Shown one piece after another: positions 6,526-16,408 of a DNA stretch of 64,000 bases. The translations under genes were made by a program, and so were the position numbers. The notes under the pieces were generated by a model. That model was not told the origin of the DNA. It saw only the letters and a list, made by a program, of their open reading frames with translations, and did not search any database. This DNA is from Nakamurella leprariae (lineage in GTDB: Bacteria; Actinomycetota; Actinomycetes; Mycobacteriales; Nakamurellaceae). The stretch covers positions 124,001 through 188,000 of the forward strand of contig NZ_JAERWK010000005.1 of assembly GCF_016918035.1 (NCBI RefSeq), in the 5' to 3' direction. The first letter of the stretch is position 1. Each line of letters starts with the position of its first letter.

Positions 6526-7476
6526 TCAGCGCCGCGGCCGGTACCCGCTCGCCGGGCGCCGGCTCGCGTCGCCGAACCGTCGGGACCGCGGCTCGCTGCC
6601 CAGCGGCGTCTGCGGGCGGCCGTCGTCGGTGGGCACCGGGCCCGGCTGACAGGTCGGGCACCAGAACGCGGTGCGCTCCTTGAGCACCGGCCCGATCATC
6701 GCGACCCGGACGGTGGTGCCGCAGCGATGACAGGGCCGACCGGAGCGGGCGTGCACGAAGGTCCGCATCCCGGGCCGCGAGTCGTGCGTGGTGGTCTGCA
6801 CCGACTGGGTGGCGCCCCGCTCCAGCAACCGCCGAGCCCGGCGCAACACCGCGTCCAGGTCGGCGTCGCCGACCCGCGTCCACGGCGAGAGCCGTTGCAG
6901 GAACAGGGTCTCCGCCATGTACATGGTCCCGATGCCGGCGACCGTCGTCTGGTCGAGCAGGGCCGCACCGAGGTGCCGGTCGGGGCCGGCGGCCAGCCGG
7001 CGCACCGACTCCGGCAGCCCGGAGACCGGGAAGTCGGGCGCCAGGATGTCCGGCCCGAGATGGCCGATCAGCGACGGCTCCTCGGCGGTGGGGATCAGGT
7101 CGAGCAGGCCGAGCCAGCTGCCGACCGCGGTCCAGTCCTGGTTGCCCAGCACGGCCCGTACCGCGACGCCACCGGGGCGCGGCCAGTGTTCGTCCCCCGG
7201 CGGCACGATCGCCCACCGGCCCTCCATGCGCAGGTGCGAGCGCAGGGTCAGCGGCTCCGCGGAGACGGTCTCGAACCGCCGCCCACTCGCGTCGGGTGCC
7301 GCCCCGATCCGGGTGAGGATCTGCTTGCCGTGCGAGCGCACCTCGACCACCCGGCGCCCGGCCAGGTCGACACCGCCCAGGTCCGCCCAGCGCAGCTCGG
7401 TCCGGGTCAGCACCCGATCGGCCAGCGCCTGGTGCAACCGGGTGGCCGTCCGCAGCACGGTGTCGCCCTCAGGCAC
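6526..7476 (-). CDS. nei2: Endonuclease VIII-like DNA glycosylase (Nei2 type)
   Basis: A 316-residue Fpg/Nei-family base-excision repair enzyme. It starts M-P-E-G-D-T, giving the catalytic Pro2 and Glu3, has the beta-clamp lysine in 'SHGKQIL', a helix-two-turn-helix region with 'GIGTMYMAE', and a C-terminal zinc finger C-x2-C...C-x2-C ('CHRCG', 'CPTC'). It removes oxidised pyrimidines and cuts the abasic site. About 35 residues follow the zinc finger and are unconserved. The start overlaps the end of the Lhr helicase gene by 8 bp, so the two are coupled. The same lhr-nei order is known in mycobacteria. Confidence 0.9.
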   Translation of the reverse strand: MPEGDTVLRTATRLHQALADRVLTRTELRWADLGGVDLAGRRVVEVRSHGKQILTRIGAAPDASGRRFETVSAEPLTLRSHLRMEGRWAIVPPGDEHWPRPGGVAVRAVLGNQDWTAVGSWLGLLDLIPTAEEPSLIGHLGPDILAPDFPVSGLPESVRRLAAGPDRHLGAALLDQTTVAGIGTMYMAETLFLQRLSPWTRVGDADLDAVLRRARRLLERGATQSVQTTTHDSRPGMRTFVHARSGRPCHRCGTTVRVAMIGPVLKERTAFWCPTCQPGPVPTDDGRPQTPLGSEPRSRRFGDASRRPASGYRPRR

Positions 7477-10400
7477 GGACCATCCCCGCTCCGGCGGTCG
7501 CCGGCCGGAGCCGCAGTCCGCGGGGCGTCCGGCTGAACCCGGCCTCGACCAGGGCGTCCACCACGGCGCCGGCCGCGGTGAGCGCGTCGGCCTGGTCGAC
7601 CTTGCTCACGGTGAGCGAGCCGATCCAGCCGCCGGTCACCCGGCTGGCCAGCGCCCGGGCCCCGGCCTCCAGCCGCGCCGGGTCGTCGGTGAAGGTGAGC
7701 AGGGACCGGCCGCCGCGCTCGGTGAACAGGGTGAGCTCCCCGTCGACGAGCACGACCAGGGCACCGGCCCGGCGGGCCGGTCGGTGTCGTTCCGACTCGG
7801 TCTCCCGGGCCGGCCACGGCAACGCGGCACCGTACGGGTTGGCCGGGTCGGCGGCCGCCAGCACCACCGCCTCCAGTGCCGGCTCGGGGGCGTCCGGCGC
7901 GGGCGCGTACCCGCGGATCCGGTCGACCGCTCCGGCGGTGGCGAACTGGGCGGCGCCCAGGCTCTCCACGAAGTACCCGCGCCGGACCCGGCCGGCCTCC
8001 TCGAACGCGGCCAGGATCCGGTACACCGCGGCGAAGCCGCCCGGCGTCCCCTCGGCGACCACCGACCCGCGGGTCACCACGCCGTACCGGTCGAGCAGCA
8101 CCTCGGCCGCGGCGGACGCCCGCACCGTCGGATCCGTCTCCACCTCGGGGACCAGCGACCAACGACCGGCGACCGCCGCCGATCCCGGTCGACGACTGCC
8201 GGTGGCCCGGCCGGGCCGGTTGGCCGAGAGCAGCGACAGCCCGGACATCCGGGTCCGGGTGCGCGGCGCCGCCCGGGAAGTGGTGCGGTGCGCGGTGCTG
8301 CCCGCGGTCAGTCGGGCGCGGACCGGGGTCAACGTGTCGCCGGTGACCAGACCGCTGAGCACCAGGTCCCACAGCGCCTGCTCCCAGTCGGTGTCCGACA
8401 CCCGGACCGGGCCACCCGCGCCGCCGTCCCGGGCCAGGTCGGCGCTCGCCGCCTCGACCAGCGCCGGGAAGAAGTAGGCCCCGCCGCGTGCCAGGGTGGC
8501 CAACAGCGCCCGGTGCACCGCACCGGCCGGCGGCGTGCGCGGTCGCATCGGGGCGGTGCCCCCGTCGGCCGGGGCGGCACCCCTGTCCGCCGGGGCGTCC
8601 CCGCCGCCGGCCGCGGGACCCGCCGCCGGCCCAGACTCCCGGGCGTGCTCCGGCCACCGGTCGTCGTCGGAGATCGGCAGGGTGAGCGCGGCCGTCTCGG
8701 CCAGGTGCAGCGACATCCAGCAGTCGGCGCCGCCGAGGGCGCCGTGCCCGGTCCACACCACCTCACCGGAGGCCATCAGCTCGTCCAGCCAGGCCGGCCG
8801 GTAGGTGGGCACCCGCGCCGGCAGGATCACCGACTCCAGCGCACTGGCGGGGATGACCGCGCCGGCCAACTGCTCGACCGCGCGCACCACCGCCCCCGGC
8901 CCGCCGGACCGACGCGCGCCGCCGCCGCCCGGATCACCGATCGGGGCGATCCCGTTCCAGGCGGGCAGGAACCGGCCGAGCGCGGACGGCGGCACCGGCT
9001 CCACCTCGGACCGCAGCGCGGCCAGCGACCGACGGCGCAGCAGCCGCAGCACCTCGGCGTCGACGAACTCCCGGACCCCGTCGGTCGCGGCGTGCCGGGG
9101 ACCCATGGCAGCACCGGTCGCGCCACCCGGCGCTGCCGCGACTCCGAGCGGCCGGAACTCCCCCTCGGCCAGCCGGCCCGTGCCGACCAGCCGGCGCAGC
9201 GCGTCGGCGACCACCGCGGTGCCCAACCCGAAGGTCGTCGCCGCGTCGGCGGCCACGAACGGCCCGCGGGTGCGCGCGTACCGGCCGAGCAGCCGGCCGA
9301 GCGGATCGGGTTGCGGATCCAGCAGCGAGCTCGCGATGCCCGGCGGCAGCGGGACGCCGAGCGCGTCCCGCAGCAGCGGGGCGTCGGCCGGGTCGGCCCA
9401 GGACTCGCGCCCGCCGACCCGGACCACGATGGCGCGGCGGGCGGCCTGCAGCTCGTCCAGCGCGGCGGCCGGCTCGGGCACCAGCGCCGGGTCGACCCGG
9501 GCGGCCACCTGCTCGGTGGTCAGCGGACCGAGGATGCGCAGCAGGTCGGCGATCTCGTCGGGGTTGCGGGCCCGGCGCTGCCCGGAGAGCCGTTGCAGGT
9601 CGGCCTCGGTCCGGGCCAGCGCCTCCGGATCGAGCAGGTCCCGCAGGGCCAGACCGTCGCCGCTGCCGAGCAGTTCGGCCAGCAGGGTCGGGTCGACCGT
9701 CAGCGCCGCGGCCCGCTTCTCGGCCAGCGGGGAGTCGCCCTCGTACAGGAACTGGGCGACGTAGCCGAACAACAGCGACCCGGCGAACGGCGACGGGCTC
9801 TGCGTGGTCACCTCGACGATCCGCACCCGGCGGGCCTGCAGGTCGCGCATCACCTCGACCAGCGCGGGCACGTCGAACACGTCCGAGAGGCACTCCCGCA
9901 CCGCCTCGGCCACGATCGGGAACGTCGGGTACTGGGCCGCCACCTCCAGCAGCTGGGAGGCGCGTTGGCGCTGCTGCCACAACGGTTGTCGCTTGCCGAT
10001 CTGCCGGCGCGGCAGCAGCAGCGCCCGGGCCGCGCACTCCCGGAACCGCGCGGCGAACACGGCCGACCCACCGACCTCGGCGGTCACCTCGGCCTCCACG
10101 CTGGCCGGGTCCAGCAGCACCGCGTCGAGCAGGGCCGGCCCCTCGGCGCCACCCCCGTCGGCCCCACGGCCGGCGCCGCCGAACGGGAACAGGTCGTCCG
10201 CGCCGTCCAGGTCCGGGTCGTCGAACAGCGGCCCGGAGGAGGTGATGTCGGTGTCGGGCAGCCGCAGCACGATGCCGTCGTCGGAGTGCATGGCCTGCAC
10301 GTCCACGCCGAACCGTTCCCGCATCCGGGCCGCGATGACCAGGGCCCACGGAGCGTGCACCGCGGCGCCGTAGGGCGAGTGCAGCACCAGTCGCCAGTCG

Positions 10401-12556
10401 CCCAGCTCGTCCCGGAACCGTTCCAGCACCAGGGTGCGCTCGTCGGGGACCAGCCCGACCGCCTCGCGCTGCTCGGTCAGGTAGGCCAGCAGGTTGTCGG
10501 CCGCGAAGACGTCCAGCCCGGCACCGGTCAGCTCGACCGCGGCGGCCGGGGCGTCCAGCGAGCTGATCCGGCGGACGAACTCGCCGTGGGCCCGGCCCAG
10601 CTCGGCGGGCCGGCCGAGGGTGTCGCCCTTCCAGAACGGCAACCGCCCCGGCTGGCCCGGCGCCGGCACGACCAGCACCTGGTCGTGGGTGATCTCGACG
10701 ATCCGCCACGAACTAGACCCGAGCGCGAAGACGTCGCCGACCCGTGACTCGTAGACCATCTCCTCGTCGAGCTCGCCCACCCGCCGGGGCCCCCGCCCGC
10801 TCGGGTCCTCGCCGGAGGCCAGGAACACCCCGTACAGCCCGCGGTCCGGGATGGTGCCGCCGGAGGTGACGGCCAGCCGCTGCGCGCCCGGGCGGCCGGT
10901 CAGCTGGCCGGTGACCCGGTCCCAGGTCAGCCGGGGTCGCAGCTCGGCGAACTGCTCGCTCGGGTAGCGCCCGGAGAGCATGTCCAGCACCGACTCCAGC
11001 GGGCCACGGCCGAGCGTGGCGAACGGCGCGGACCGGCGCAGCAGTTCCAGCAGCTCGTCGACGGTGATCGGGTCCATCGCGCAGATGGCCACGATCTGCT
11101 GCGCGGCGATGTCCAGCGGGTTGCTGACCACCGACAGCGCCTCGATGGCGCCGTCCCGCATCCGGCCGGCCACCACGGCCGCCGACACCAGGTCACCGCG
11201 ATACTTCGGGAACATGACTCCGTGGCTGGGCGCCCCCACCTGGTGCCCGGCCCGGCCGATGCGCTGCAGCCCACTGGCCACCGACGGCGGTGCCTCGACC
11301 TGGATGACCAGGTCGACCGCGCCCATGTCGACACCGAGCTCCAGCGAGGACGTGGCCACCACCGCCGGCAGCCGGCCCGTCTTGAGATCGTCCTCGATGA
11401 GGGAGCGCTGCTCCCGGGACACCGACCCGTGGTGGGCCCGGGCCAGCACGGCCGGCGCCCCTGCGGACGCCCCGGCCTGGGCCATGATCTCGGCCGGAGC
11501 GCCGCGACCGGGCTGCCAGCCGCCGTCCTGGCCGTCCGGTCCCCCGTCCCGGTCCACCCCTGCGTCCGCCGCGGCCGCCTCCCGCTCGACGACCCGCTCG
11601 GCCTCCCGATCAGCATGGATCTCGTTGATCCGGGCGGTGAGTCGCTCGGCCAGCCGCCGGGAGTTGGCGAAGACGATGGTCGACCGGTGTTCCTCGATGA
11701 GGTCGACGACCCGCTCCTCGACGTGCGGCCAGATCGAGGTGCGTTGCGGCTCCCCGGCCGCGTTGCCCGTCAGGTCGCCGGTCTGCTCCCCCAGGGCGGA
11801 CATGTCGGCGACGGGGACGACGACGTCGACGTCGAGCTCCTTGGTCGATGGTGGGCGCACCACCGTGACGGGTCGGCCGCCGGTGAGGAACCGACCGACC
11901 TCCTCCATCGGCCGCACGGTCGCCGACAGCCCGATCCGCTGGGCCGGGGCGTCCAGCAGCAGGTCCAGCCGGTCCAACGAGACGGCCATGTGCGCACCGC
12001 GTTTCGTGCCGGCGACGGCGTGCACCTCGTCGACGATCACGGTGGTGACACCGGTGAGCATCTCCCGCGCCCGGCTGGTGAGCAGCAGGAACAGCGACTC
12101 CGGCGTGGTGATGAGGATGTCGGCGCCGTCCTTGGCGAACGCCCGTCGGTCGCCGGCCGGGGTGTCACCGGACCGGACCGCCACCGTCGGGGTCCGCAGC
12201 GTCTCGCCCCGGCGCGCAGCCAGCGACCCGATGCCGATGAGCGGGGCCCGCAGGTTGCGCTCGACGTCGACGGCCAGCGCCTTCAGCGGCGACAGGTAGA
12301 GCACCCGGCAGCGGCGCTCCTTGCTCTCCGGCGGCTCCACGGTGGCCAGGTCGTCGATCGCGGACAGGAACGCAGCCAGCGTCTTGCCCGAGCCGGTCGG
12401 CGCGACGACGAGGGTGTGTTCGCCCCGACCGATGGCCGACCAGGCACCCGCCTGGGCGGCCGTTGGCGCGGCGAAGGCACCGGTGAACCAGTCCCGCACC
12501 ACGGGCGAGAACCGCTGCAGCGCCGGCTCCGCCGCTGTCCCGTCGTCCTGACTCAT
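7469..12556 (-). CDS. lhr: Lhr-type ATP-dependent helicase, long form
   Basis: A 1695-residue superfamily 2 helicase. Motif I is APTGSGKT (52-59), the DEAD/H box is 'DEVH' in 'VIVDEVHAVAGTKRG', motif III is 'SATV', and motif VI is 'QRIGRAGH'. The second half is the large Lhr C-terminal domain with winged-helix parts. Lhr translocates 3' to 5' on single-stranded DNA and unwinds RNA:DNA hybrids; it belongs to DNA-damage responses. This copy is longer than the roughly 1500 residues I recall for mycobacterial Lhr. Part of the excess is low-complexity Gly/Ala/Asp insertions, for example near 8540-8640 and 10130-10190. It sits upstream of nei2 with overlapping ends. Confidence 0.93.
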   Translation of the reverse strand: MSQDDGTAAEPALQRFSPVVRDWFTGAFAAPTAAQAGAWSAIGRGEHTLVVAPTGSGKTLAAFLSAIDDLATVEPPESKERRCRVLYLSPLKALAVDVERNLRAPLIGIGSLAARRGETLRTPTVAVRSGDTPAGDRRAFAKDGADILITTPESLFLLLTSRAREMLTGVTTVIVDEVHAVAGTKRGAHMAVSLDRLDLLLDAPAQRIGLSATVRPMEEVGRFLTGGRPVTVVRPPSTKELDVDVVVPVADMSALGEQTGDLTGNAAGEPQRTSIWPHVEERVVDLIEEHRSTIVFANSRRLAERLTARINEIHADREAERVVEREAAAADAGVDRDGGPDGQDGGWQPGRGAPAEIMAQAGASAGAPAVLARAHHGSVSREQRSLIEDDLKTGRLPAVVATSSLELGVDMGAVDLVIQVEAPPSVASGLQRIGRAGHQVGAPSHGVMFPKYRGDLVSAAVVAGRMRDGAIEALSVVSNPLDIAAQQIVAICAMDPITVDELLELLRRSAPFATLGRGPLESVLDMLSGRYPSEQFAELRPRLTWDRVTGQLTGRPGAQRLAVTSGGTIPDRGLYGVFLASGEDPSGRGPRRVGELDEEMVYESRVGDVFALGSSSWRIVEITHDQVLVVPAPGQPGRLPFWKGDTLGRPAELGRAHGEFVRRISSLDAPAAAVELTGAGLDVFAADNLLAYLTEQREAVGLVPDERTLVLERFRDELGDWRLVLHSPYGAAVHAPWALVIAARMRERFGVDVQAMHSDDGIVLRLPDTDITSSGPLFDDPDLDGADDLFPFGGAGRGADGGGAEGPALLDAVLLDPASVEAEVTAEVGGSAVFAARFRECAARALLLPRRQIGKRQPLWQQRQRASQLLEVAAQYPTFPIVAEAVRECLSDVFDVPALVEVMRDLQARRVRIVEVTTQSPSPFAGSLLFGYVAQFLYEGDSPLAEKRAAALTVDPTLLAELLGSGDGLALRDLLDPEALARTEADLQRLSGQRRARNPDEIADLLRILGPLTTEQVAARVDPALVPEPAAALDELQAARRAIVVRVGGRESWADPADAPLLRDALGVPLPPGIASSLLDPQPDPLGRLLGRYARTRGPFVAADAATTFGLGTAVVADALRRLVGTGRLAEGEFRPLGVAAAPGGATGAAMGPRHAATDGVREFVDAEVLRLLRRRSLAALRSEVEPVPPSALGRFLPAWNGIAPIGDPGGGGARRSGGPGAVVRAVEQLAGAVIPASALESVILPARVPTYRPAWLDELMASGEVVWTGHGALGGADCWMSLHLAETAALTLPISDDDRWPEHARESGPAAGPAAGGGDAPADRGAAPADGGTAPMRPRTPPAGAVHRALLATLARGGAYFFPALVEAASADLARDGGAGGPVRVSDTDWEQALWDLVLSGLVTGDTLTPVRARLTAGSTAHRTTSRAAPRTRTRMSGLSLLSANRPGRATGSRRPGSAAVAGRWSLVPEVETDPTVRASAAAEVLLDRYGVVTRGSVVAEGTPGGFAAVYRILAAFEEAGRVRRGYFVESLGAAQFATAGAVDRIRGYAPAPDAPEPALEAVVLAAADPANPYGAALPWPARETESERHRPARRAGALVVLVDGELTLFTERGGRSLLTFTDDPARLEAGARALASRVTGGWIGSLTVSKVDQADALTAAGAVVDALVEAGFSRTPRGLRLRPATAGAGMVRA

Positions 12557-13168: not shown

Positions 13169-13984
13169 ATGCGACGACTGGCGACAGCTGCCGTCGCCGG
13201 CGCGGCCATGGTGGCCGCCTCGGTGATCGCGGCCCCGATGGCCGCGGCAGCGGCGGACGACACCGGCACCGTGTACGTGGTGCACGGCATCCCCGACACC
13301 CCCGTCGACGTCTGGGTCGACGGGACCTTGACCCTCGACGACTTCGCCCCCGGCTCGGTGGCCGGCCCGCTGCCGCTGCCCGCCGGCAGCTACGACGTGG
13401 CGATCACCGCGCCGGACGCGACCGACGACTCGTCACCGCTGCTCAGCGCCACGGCTGAGGTGGCCAGCGGCGCCAGCGCCACCCTGGTCGCCCACCTGCA
13501 GGTCGGTGGTACACCGACCGTCACCGCGTTCAGCAACGACACCTCGTCGCTGTCCGCGGGCCAGAGCCGGTTGGTGGTGCGCCATGTCGCCGACGCGCCG
13601 GCGGTCGACGTCCGGGCGGGCGGTGCCGTGGTGCTGTCCGGGGTGACCAATCCGCAGCAGGGCGCCCTCGTCGTGCCGGCCGGCACGGTCTCGGCCGACG
13701 TGACCCTGGCCGGCACCGACACCGTGGTGCTCGGCCCGGCCTCGCTGGACCTGGCCGCCGGGTCGGCCACCTTCGTCCACGCCATCGGGTCGGCCGACGA
13801 CGGCACCCTCTCGCTGGTCGCCTTCACCGTCTCCGGTCTGGGCGGCACACCGTCGGGCGTGCCGGCCGGCGGTGGACCGGCCGACAGCCCCTTGTCGCTG
13901 GTGCTGGTGATCGGACTGGTCGCCGCCGGCGGGGCCGCGGTGGCCTTCGGTGGCCGGCGACTGCTGGCCGACCGGCAGCCGTGA
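13169..13984 (+). CDS. Secreted DUF4397 protein with C-terminal membrane anchor
   Basis: A 271-residue exported protein with a signal peptide (about 1-29, ending in an AAAAA run), then two DUF4397 beta-sandwich repeats. The first begins 'GTVYVVHGIPDTPVDVW' and the second 'RLVVRHVADAPAVDV'. A Gly/Pro linker is followed by a hydrophobic helix (about 245-265) and an Arg-rich end. I see no clear LPxTG-type motif before the last helix, so it may be membrane-anchored rather than sortase-linked. It has a good ribosome site (GGAG) and overlaps the sortase gene by 4 bp. Confidence 0.85.
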   Translation: MRRLATAAVAGAAMVAASVIAAPMAAAAADDTGTVYVVHGIPDTPVDVWVDGTLTLDDFAPGSVAGPLPLPAGSYDVAITAPDATDDSSPLLSATAEVASGASATLVAHLQVGGTPTVTAFSNDTSSLSAGQSRLVVRHVADAPAVDVRAGGAVVLSGVTNPQQGALVVPAGTVSADVTLAGTDTVVLGPASLDLAAGSATFVHAIGSADDGTLSLVAFTVSGLGGTPSGVPAGGGPADSPLSLVLVIGLVAAGGAAVAFGGRRLLADRQP

Positions 13985-14829
13985 GGCCTCCGACCGGGAC
14001 GGGGTGCGCCACCCCGTCCCGGCCGGAGCCGGACCCGTCCACCGCCATCCCCGGCCGGACCGGTCGGGGACGGCGGGGTCGGGCGGTGGCCATGGTGGTG
14101 CTCGGCACGGTGGTGGTCGTCGGCGCCCCGACGGCCCGCTGGCTGACCACCGGCGACGCCGCGGGGCAGCACGTGAGCACGGTGGACGCGGCGGCGGCGC
14201 AGGCTCTGGCCGCACCCTCGACCCCCCCGGGCCTGACACCTTCGACCACGACGTCAGCATCCCCGTCAGCACCGTCGACCGCCGATCCCGCGCCGTCCAC
14301 GACGCCTGCGTCGACGATCGCACCGGAACCATCGCCGGCTCCGACTCCGGCCTCCTCGGCCGCACCGGCACCGGCTCCCGGCGCTCCGGTCGAGATCAGC
14401 ATCGAGCGGCTCCGTGTCGCTGCCGCGGTGGTCCCGGTCGGCGTCCGGTCGGACGGTCAACTCGAGATCCCCCAGGACGTCCGCACGCTCGGGTGGTACC
14501 GGTTCGGCCCCACGCCCGGCGCGACGACCGGGTCGGCGGTCGTCACCGGACACGTGGACGACGCCCGGCAGGGCGCGGGAGTGTTCGCCCGCCTCGGCGA
14601 CCTGGCTCCGGGCGACCGGTTGCAGGTCGTCGATGAGGCCGGCACCGCGCGATGGTTCACCGTGGTGGCGCGGGAGCAGTGGGCGAAGGCGGACGTGCCA
14701 CTGGACCGGCTGTTCGACGCAGGTGGGGCGGGCCGGCTGGTGCTGGTCACCTGCGGCGGCGACTTCGACGGCGACGACGGCGTGTACCAGGACAACATCG
14801 CGGTCACCGCGGTCCCCGATCAGGCGTGA
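13981..14829 (+). CDS. Class F sortase
   Basis: A 282-residue protein with one membrane helix (about 35-52), a long Pro/Ser/Thr linker (about 78-135), then a sortase barrel. Catalytic His191 is in 'VVTGHVDD' and Cys258 in 'LVTCGG', a class F hallmark. Sortases normally need an arginine shortly after the cysteine; the 24 residues after Cys258 contain none, and a glutamine sits in 'VYQDNIAV', where many relatives, as I recall, have 'YRDN'. The GTG start overlaps the DUF4397 stop (GTGA). The likely role is handling the DUF4397 protein or another surface protein, if active. Confidence 0.87.
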   Translation: MRPPTGTGCATPSRPEPDPSTAIPGRTGRGRRGRAVAMVVLGTVVVVGAPTARWLTTGDAAGQHVSTVDAAAAQALAAPSTPPGLTPSTTTSASPSAPSTADPAPSTTPASTIAPEPSPAPTPASSAAPAPAPGAPVEISIERLRVAAAVVPVGVRSDGQLEIPQDVRTLGWYRFGPTPGATTGSAVVTGHVDDARQGAGVFARLGDLAPGDRLQVVDEAGTARWFTVVAREQWAKADVPLDRLFDAGGAGRLVLVTCGGDFDGDDGVYQDNIAVTAVPDQA

Positions 14830-14880
14830 GCGCGTCGCGCTCGGCGGGCGGGCCCGGTGGCATCAACTAGGGTGGCCCGC

Positions 14881-15498
14881 GTGTCGGTGCCCGCGTCCCC
14901 CTCCTCGGAGTCAGGGAGATCCGCACCGATCAGCGACGCCACGATGAGCCCGCAGGCCCAGGACGAGCTGCTGAACCAGCAGTTCCGGGAGGGCGGTCCA
15001 GCGGTGCTCAAGGCGGCCTACGACCGGTACTCGTCGATGGTCTACCGACTGGGGCTGCTCAGCCTGCGCGACCACCACGATGCCGAGGACCTCGTCCAGC
15101 AGGTGTTCGTCCGGGCCTGGCGCGGCCGTGGCGGGTTCGACCCGACCCGCGGCTCGCTGCCCGGATGGTTGCTGGGCATCACCCGGCGCCTGGTCGCCGA
15201 CCGGTTCGCCGCGCTGGACCGGGACCGCAAGGTGCAGGCCGCGGCCCAGAGCGTGGCCCAGCCGACCACCGAGACCAGTGGTGCGGAACGGGTCGTGGAC
15301 CGTGTGGTGATGGGCGACAAGCTGGAGCAGTTGCCCGCCGCCCAGCAGTTGGTGCTGCGGCTGGCGTTCTTCGACGGATTGACGCACACCGAGATCGCCG
15401 AGGCGACGAGCCTGCCGCTCGGCACGGTCAAGAGCCACATCCGGCGAGCTCTGGCGAACCTTCGCAAGCAGTGGGAGGTGGACGGTGCCTCGTCGTGA
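14881..15498 (+). CDS. ECF-type RNA polymerase sigma factor
   Basis: A sigma-70 family factor of about 205 residues. Region 2 is seen as 'AYDRYSSMVYRLGLLSLRDHHDAEDLVQQVFVRAW', and region 4 as 'LPAAQQLVLRLAFFDGLTHTEIAEATSLPLGTVKSHIRRAL', a helix-turn-helix ending in the usual K-S-H-I-R. It closely resembles the SigK/SigL group. A GTG at 14881 has the purine-rich AGGGTGG just ahead; an in-frame GTG at 14857 and ATG at 14944 are alternatives. It overlaps the following anti-sigma gene by 14 bp, so it is controlled by that membrane partner. Confidence 0.9.
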   Translation: MSVPASPSSESGRSAPISDATMSPQAQDELLNQQFREGGPAVLKAAYDRYSSMVYRLGLLSLRDHHDAEDLVQQVFVRAWRGRGGFDPTRGSLPGWLLGITRRLVADRFAALDRDRKVQAAAQSVAQPTTETSGAERVVDRVVMGDKLEQLPAAQQLVLRLAFFDGLTHTEIAEATSLPLGTVKSHIRRALANLRKQWEVDGASS

Positions 15499-16408
15499 CG
15501 ACCTGCCGGACCAGGATCTCCCGGACGAGTTCCCGTCCGTGAGCGGCCACCCCGCCACCGACGACCTCGCGGTCCTGGCCCTCGGCGACCACGTCGAGAC
15601 CGAGGACCTGTACGACCACGTGCTGGAGTGCGCCCGCTGCCAGCAGGTGGTGTCCGAGTTCGAGCACGCGATGCAGTGGGTCACGGCCACCGCGACGCCG
15701 GGCCCGACGCCAGGCCCGGCGGTGTGGTCGGCGGTGCTGGGCGAGCTGGGCGACGATCTGACCACCAGTTCCCGTCAGGCCGAGGCCCCGACCGAGTACC
15801 TGGGCCGCGGCGGCCTGGTCGTGGCCGGTGCCACCGAGAGCGGCTCGGGCGACCACGTCTTCCGCGGCGAGCCCGGCACCCTGGGCGAGTTCCCGCCGGT
15901 CGCGGCGGCACCGGAGACCGACCACGGCGCGCCGGCCGGCGACGAACTCGCCGCCGTCCGCACCCGCCGTCGCCGATGGGCGACGTCGCTGGTGGCGGCC
16001 GCGGTCGTCGGAGCCCTGGTCGGTGGCGGCATCGTCTTCGCCACCCGGGACCGGGAACCGGATCTGCAGGTCCAGGCCCGGGCCGACCTCACCCCGGTCG
16101 CCGGCGGCATCATCACCGACACCGACCGCACCTTCGGATCCGCGCAGCTGATCGACGCCGGCGGGCGCGAGGAGCTCCGGGTGCGGACCGACGACCTTCC
16201 GCAGATCGACGGGACCTACGAGGTGTGGTTGCTCGGCCAGGAGGGCCGAATGGTGTCGCTGGGCGTGCTGCACGACGGACACGGCACCTTCACGGTGCCC
16301 GGCGGCACCGATCTGGGCGAGTACCGCCTGGTCGACATCTCGGACGAACCCCTGGACGGCAACCCGGTCCACTCCGGCAACAGCGTCGTGCGCGGTGACC
16401 TGCAGTGA
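15485..16408 (+). CDS. Transmembrane ZAS / RskA-type anti-sigma factor
   Basis: A 307-residue anti-sigma factor. The N-terminal cytoplasmic part has a zinc-binding H-x3-C-x2-C motif (His45, Cys49, Cys52) expected to clasp the sigma factor. A single membrane helix lies near 165-185. The outer domain is RskA-like, with 'GTYEVWLLGQEGRMVSLGVL' and a closing beta strand. Release normally needs site-1/site-2 proteolysis after an envelope signal; neither protease is in the window. The gene overlaps sigma by 14 bp and the following hydrolase by 14 bp, making one transcription unit with the sortase and DUF4397 genes. Confidence 0.9.
   Translation: MPRRDDLPDQDLPDEFPSVSGHPATDDLAVLALGDHVETEDLYDHVLECARCQQVVSEFEHAMQWVTATATPGPTPGPAVWSAVLGELGDDLTTSSRQAEAPTEYLGRGGLVVAGATESGSGDHVFRGEPGTLGEFPPVAAAPETDHGAPAGDELAAVRTRRRRWATSLVAAAVVGALVGGGIVFATRDREPDLQVQARADLTPVAGGIITDTDRTFGSAQLIDAGGREELRVRTDDLPQIDGTYEVWLLGQEGRMVSLGVLHDGHGTFTVPGGTDLGEYRLVDISDEPLDGNPVHSGNSVVRGDLQ

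Follow-up and report, generated by a model that had tools for sequence, protein, structure and literature searches.

Class F sortases of the Actinobacteria have a sortase domain with TCGG after strand beta7, and have been described as keeping His and Cys but having the catalytic Arg replaced by Asn (PMC6998099, published in 2020 and citing the in silico survey of Malik and Kim 2019); no function was designated for them, and the text of that paper on class F gives neither a Lys nor a substrate motif. Actinoplanes missouriensis also has four enzymes of this class, SrtF1-4, whose physiological roles were stated to be unknown in a 2026 study in which deletion of all four gave no phenotype (PMC13251363). 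In the same study, the neighbours of srtF1 and srtF4, each having a signal peptide, a helix and a basic tail, were noted as possible substrates but set aside, as no known sorting pentapeptide was found in them. A "class F" enzyme of Cutibacterium acnes is said to use LPXTG (PMC13257024). In the class A enzyme of Streptococcus pyogenes (spySrtA), the catalytic Arg binds the P4 and P3 carbonyls rather than the oxyanion, which is served by a Thr beside the Cys (PMC9520033). Our search of the open-licence PMC literature (titles, beginnings of abstracts, and passages) found no substrate motif for class F and no paper in which "sortase" occurs together with "DUF4397", and "GVDTG", the name of a curated C-terminal domain model discussed below, was in none of the matches listed.

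The window, that is, the whole stretch of 64,000 nucleotides analysed here, is from Nakamurella leprariae and contains a sortase gene situated in a four-gene cassette (13169-16408) with the order DUF4397, class F sortase, ECF sigma factor and RskA-type anti-sigma factor:

13169..13984, plus strand, DUF4397 surface protein of 271 aa, the proposed substrate (PF14344, 106.1 bits, two stretches)
13859..13981, plus strand, C-terminal sorting signal of the DUF4397 protein, predicted by the partner scan: V-P-A-G-G-G (residues 231-236), hydrophobic helix and RR tail
13981..14829, plus strand, Asn-type sortase of 282 aa with a GTG start, closest to class F (Pfam, NCBIfam, model)
14857..15498, plus strand, ECF sigma factor (PF04542, PF04545)
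15485..16408, plus strand, anti-sigma factor with an RskA-type C-terminal domain (PF10099)

The start of the sortase gene shares 4 bases (GTGA) with the stop of the DUF4397 gene, the product of which has an apparent Sec-type signal peptide as judged by eye. Near the cassette, a 1695-aa ORF on the minus strand (7469-12556) reads by eye as a large DEAD/DEAH-type helicase (Lhr-like). With the window locus counted and as far as the flanks permitted, relatives of the DUF4397 gene, the ECF sigma gene (on either strand) and the anti-sigma gene were found in 36, 26 and 18 of 130 class F loci, respectively. Eight further loci of the genus (L005-L012) had all four cassette genes, as did others, e.g. L014, L015, L018 and L020-L022; at L016, L017, L019 and L023 the sigma match was on the opposite strand. 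The coupling of the sortase to a DUF4397 gene and a sigma/anti-sigma pair, as noted in a preliminary description of this DNA, is thus real and conserved. It may be that this ECF sigma/anti-sigma pair controls the sortase and its substrate, with both genes placed under the sigma factor of the cassette.

The sortase matched the Pfam family Sortase (PF04203) with 54.2 bits against a cut-off of 26.6, which places it in the superfamily. Its top NCBIfam match was NF033748 (class_F_sortase) with 126.1 bits, and since this is under the cut-off of 166, the protein was not assigned to that model itself; a paralogue in the same genome scored 191.3. According to Pfam, the genome has four sortases; the class F model matches three of them. 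An N-terminal membrane anchor was recognized by eye, and the catalytic domain spans approximately residues 134-282. The AlphaFold2 model of this domain had a pLDDT of 93.9 and showed the fold of solved sortases with VIA-align Z values of up to 17.1, those for 3fn5, 5cuw, 9iok and 9j0t being 15.2 to 15.9; a fragment model ending at K236 was poor (pLDDT 65.5). With the lone protein as query, the single PDB match was Spastin, which was rejected as spurious, and a PDB profile search revealed no solved structure close in sequence to the Asn-type clade (best E 1.4e-6). The structure usually shown as "class F", 5uus (C. diphtheriae SrtF), was absent from the 9 sequences that the Asn-type profile matched with E <=0.1; a mixed profile matched it at 1.2e-8, and a class E query, far better, at 2.9e-25. 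Judging from these profile matches, two distinct groups may go under the name of class F.

From 152 loci with class F-like domains, comprising relatives, a phylum sample and Tsukamurella records, 150 distinct sortase domains were aligned, and the following residues were located in the window sortase:

14551..14553, plus strand, His191 (G-H-V-D), catalytic His (H in 150/150 relatives)
14749..14754, plus strand, Thr257-Cys258 (T-C-G-G), putative oxyanion-hole Thr and nucleophile (T 143/150, C 150/150)
14788..14790, plus strand, Gln270 of Y-Q-D-N, a variable column of the alignment
14794..14796, plus strand, Asn272, position of the canonical catalytic Arg (N 139/150, R 11/150; VIA-align arithmetic)

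Translation confirmed that His191 and Cys258 are present, at places conserved throughout the alignment, and that the 24 residues following Cys258 contain no Arg, as the preliminary description had stated. Arg was also absent between the Cys and column 279 in 27 of the 139 Asn-type relatives, and its absence is thus not rare. The same description had regarded Gln270 as occupying the place of the catalytic Arg, on the premise that relatives often have Y-R-D-N. Column 270 carries R in 41, E in 38, L in 14, T in 13, D in 11, Q in 10 and V in 7 of the 150 sequences; therefore, Gln is normal at that position, and a catalytic-site change at Gln270 was ruled out. Some relatives do have Y-R-D-N, but its Arg is not in the catalytic-Arg column, which is that of Asn272. 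VIA-align placed model residue 149 (protein residue 282) on residue 226 of 3fn5 (S. pyogenes SrtA), 339 of 5cuw (S. coelicolor SrtE1) and 241 of 9iok (T. fusca SrtE). Counting ten residues back from these range ends, which assumes that the last ten residues are free of gaps, puts Asn272 on R216, R329 and R231, respectively. The first two have been named as the catalytic Arg of spySrtA (PMC9520033) and of SrtE1 (PMC5148588), and R231 is the Arg nine residues past C222, the latter residue being taken from the title of the PDB entry. In agreement with this register, the Arg-type sequence L065 reads RDRVVARA where Asn-type sequences read RDNIVVTA, with equal spacing from the Cys.

The window sortase thus lacks the canonical His-Cys-Arg set of class A and class E enzymes, with Asn in the column of the beta8 Arg, and shows the set described for Asn-type class F, namely His and Cys kept and Asn for Arg (PMC6998099). 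It was also placed among the Asn-type class F rows in a quick tree of 92 sortase rows. Judged by sequence, it is a normal member of the arginine-less Asn-type clade that holds the class F enzymes, not the oddity among class F for which it had been taken, and the missing Arg itself is ordinary, the exchange having been published. That the Arg was lost in this protein alone, leaving a weak enzyme or a binding protein as the preliminary description had it, would agree with the Arg-free 24 residues after Cys258; it is hardly credible against an Asn common to 139 of 150 relatives, a His191 and a Cys258 without exception, a Thr257 in 143 of 150, and an exchange already printed for class F (PMC6998099). 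The conservation of these three residues argues for kept chemistry. The 11 Arg-type rows comprise a subgroup of eight and three class E-like rows. The class F-like subgroup (L065-L067 and L113-L117), which came from the phylum sample, has retained the catalytic Arg and is without the Lys considered below, and no helix-tailed upstream partner was found at the four Arg-type subgroup loci with enough flank (L065, L066, L067 and L198).

The partner scan covered loci of at least 2 kb (132), of which those with a sortase score of at least 60 were retained, giving 130 (123 Asn-type and 7 other). Helix-tailed ORFs lying upstream on the same strand were considered up to a distance of 1.3 kb, and only the closest was taken as the partner, downstream genes being left out; the motif was searched in the 35 residues preceding the helix. 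At 85 of the 123 Asn-type loci, the ORF just upstream on the same strand ended in a hydrophobic helix and a basic tail; at the remaining 38, including all 10 Tsukamurella loci, no partner was found by the filter used. The strict motif [VI]x[AST]GxG occurred in 56 of the 85 partners, as compared to a mean of 3.7 and a maximum of 11 in 2000 shuffles of the linkers. For a relaxed motif, found in 72 and absent from 13 of the partners, the shuffled mean was 15.9 and the maximum 29. Because some loci overlap (e.g. L061/L188), the set was thinned to 26 sortases of less than 50% identity, in which the strict motif was still found in 14 versus 1.0 after shuffling. The commonest letters of the signal are P, then G-G-V-x-[AT]-G-x-G-G, and the DUF4397 protein of the window has G-V-P-A-G-G-G, located in the following peptide:

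GTPSGVPAGGGPA

Among the 85 partner tails, LPxTG was not found, and LAATG and SPTSG occurred in a single tail each. Of the 23 helix-tailed ORFs of class E loci, 4 had an LPxTG/LAxTG-like word. The residue before the Gly (A/S versus T) required 10 changes on the sortase tree compared with 23.0 when the labels were shuffled, indicating joint inheritance of signal and enzyme.

It was considered whether the upstream tails are mere membrane anchors, with V-x-[AST]-G-x-G being a feature of the linker that the sortase does not read. The linkers are indeed rich in G, A, T and P, and the strict motif was also found in 5 of 59 non-partner helix-tailed ORFs of class F loci, three of which (L178, L206 and L214) were judged by eye to be real partners. 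However, such an explanation is unlikely, since 1) shuffles that keep the linker composition fall far short of the 56 of 85 observed, 2) none of the 23 helix-tailed ORFs from the 30 class E loci contained the strict motif, and 3) a curated model, NF058571, already names such tails a sorting domain. Among the 10 helix-tailed ORFs of the window, the strict motif occurred in one, the DUF4397 gene. The relaxed motif was found in 1 of 23 class E ORFs, 2 of 10 window ORFs and 9 of 59 non-partner ORFs of class F loci.

The NCBIfam model just mentioned (NF058571, GVDTG_CTERM), whose description line specifies no sortase class, represents a motif of the G-V-x-T-G type with helix and basic tail as seen in class F partners, and it matched 43 of the 85 partner tails at E <=0.01. 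The DUF4397 tail of the window differs in giving no match up to E 1, its score not reaching the cut-off of 29 bits. Five matches were obtained in this genome, none above the cut-off; the two longest immediately precede the genes of the two other class F sortases, and the remaining three begin only at model position 15 to 20. At E <=0.1 the model also matched in 5 of 14 control genomes, and weak matches alone thus mean little. The signal is therefore already partly catalogued; the present analysis adds the connection with arginine-less sortases of class F, and the V-P-A-G variant seen in the DUF4397 group. It was also noticed that the other two class F sortases of the genome (G000:C6 at about 84677 and G000:C27 at about 166907) have upstream helix-tailed partners with GAPETGGGS and AVPAGSGG. 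Neighbours of this kind hence stand beside all three class F sortases (L001-L003), with GAPETGGGS at L001 deviating from the motif, and the genome looks like one with three one-to-one sortase-substrate pairs.

A genome with class F matches at 1.17, 1.88, 3.50 and 3.81 Mb was, by inference, taken as that of A. missouriensis; a further match, weak and located at 0.055 Mb, presumably represents its class E gene. The neighbours at 1.17 and 3.81 Mb, which would be those of srtF1 and srtF4, end in RGPATGGGG, which is without the V of the motif, and GGVDAGGG, respectively, each with a helix and a basic tail, and the gene at 3.50 Mb is preceded by a neighbour resembling the DUF4397 group by eye, with GGVPSGDGG. 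No such neighbour was seen at the 1.88 Mb gene.

From the conserved residues, the recurrent signal and the cassette taken together, the best explanation is probably that the sortase is active and anchors its DUF4397 neighbour, both being encoded in a cassette that is conserved and includes an ECF sigma/anti-sigma pair. We infer that the window sortase most likely works as a cysteine transpeptidase anchored in the membrane. It would cut the DUF4397 protein within the C-terminal signal G-V-P-A-G-G-G, the A-G bond being the probable site, and attach the cleaved protein to the cell envelope. In this reaction Cys258 would act as nucleophile and His191 as acid/base, and Thr257 together with backbone amides would form the putative oxyanion hole, T207 of spySrtA being the analogue for the role of the Thr (PMC9520033). 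Alternatively, the whole Asn-type clade could be catalytically dead and serve as a chaperone or an anchor-binding protein for its neighbours; the Arg-to-Ala change that abolished the activity of spySrtA (PMC9520033) and the quadruple class F deletion without phenotype (PMC13251363) would be in line with this. Yet we consider a dead clade very unlikely, because a Cys and a His found in 150 of 150 domains and a near-invariant Thr are hard to explain without Cys chemistry, and the partner signals retain a cleavable-looking [AST]-G.

How an active enzyme of this clade might dispense with the Arg is a separate matter. Another conserved Arg elsewhere in the domain was ruled out, the best column having R in 51% of the 139 Asn-type rows. 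The earlier suggestion that the enzyme "may use another residue" consequently holds for the whole family and is not specific to this protein. Column counts pointed to one residue:

14686..14688, plus strand, Lys236, start of the beta6/beta7 loop, candidate stand-in for the Arg charge

Of the basic residues in the clade, Lys236 alone is near-invariant, with K in 133 of 139 Asn-type rows (95.7%); three of the six rows lacking it have Arg instead. In the 11 Arg-type rows K was absent from this column and Arg was present in three, hence the Asn type is not alone in having a charge at this place. Class E sortases differ in having Pro at column 236 (22 of the 23 rows without a gap at this column); among the 30 class E rows, the Cys column was filled in only 4 and column 272 in 3 (all R), and these data therefore support the Pro more than the Arg. 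Lys236 comes right after a long strand (model 90-102) taken as beta6, and would thereby open the beta6/beta7 loop, which in SrtE1 lines the substrate groove (PMC5148588). By analogy with spySrtA, where the Arg binds substrate carbonyls, and as the oxyanion Thr is kept here, we propose that the positioning performed by the canonical Arg is taken over by Lys236 and Asn272, which would hold the backbone of the substrate. On these counts the near-invariant Lys236, with Asn272, is the best candidate for a stand-in, and its role as a replacement charge is plausible but unproven. On the tree of 92 rows, a single change suffices at column 272 (branch SH-aLRT 40) and four changes at column 236; the link between Lys and Asn thus amounts to about one evolutionary event, and compensation would look the same as shared ancestry.

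Two readings of an active Asn-type sortase follow. We tentatively suggest that this large clade may have moved the active-site charge from the beta8 Arg to a Lys of the beta6/beta7 loop, with Asn in the old place, and changed from an LPXTG-type signal to V-x-[AST]-G-x-G on a dedicated upstream substrate. It is also conceivable, although less likely than the explanation preferred above, that Asn272 alone, or backbone groups, would position the substrate, Lys236 being kept for another reason, e.g. the P4 pocket for the unusual signal. Consistent with the latter are the Pro found in class E at the site of Lys236, the contact of P293 in the beta6/beta7 loop of SrtE1 (presumed to be the same Pro) with the bound peptide (PMC5148588), and the binding of the P4 and P3 carbonyls by the Arg of spySrtA (PMC9520033). 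Against it stand the unique near-invariance of the Lys, far above that of the best Arg column, and its absence from all 11 Arg-type rows.

The likely pairing of enzyme and substrate, and not the missing Arg, is the point worth testing. A concrete motif and a dedicated partner gene make the function of class F directly testable, including in A. missouriensis. If Lys truly replaces Arg, the His-Cys-Arg triad would not be shared by all sortases, and enzymes that lack the Arg and read another signal could be orthogonal ligation tools. Should the charge indeed have moved in this clade, sortase catalysis would have been solved in a second way, each enzyme serving one substrate.
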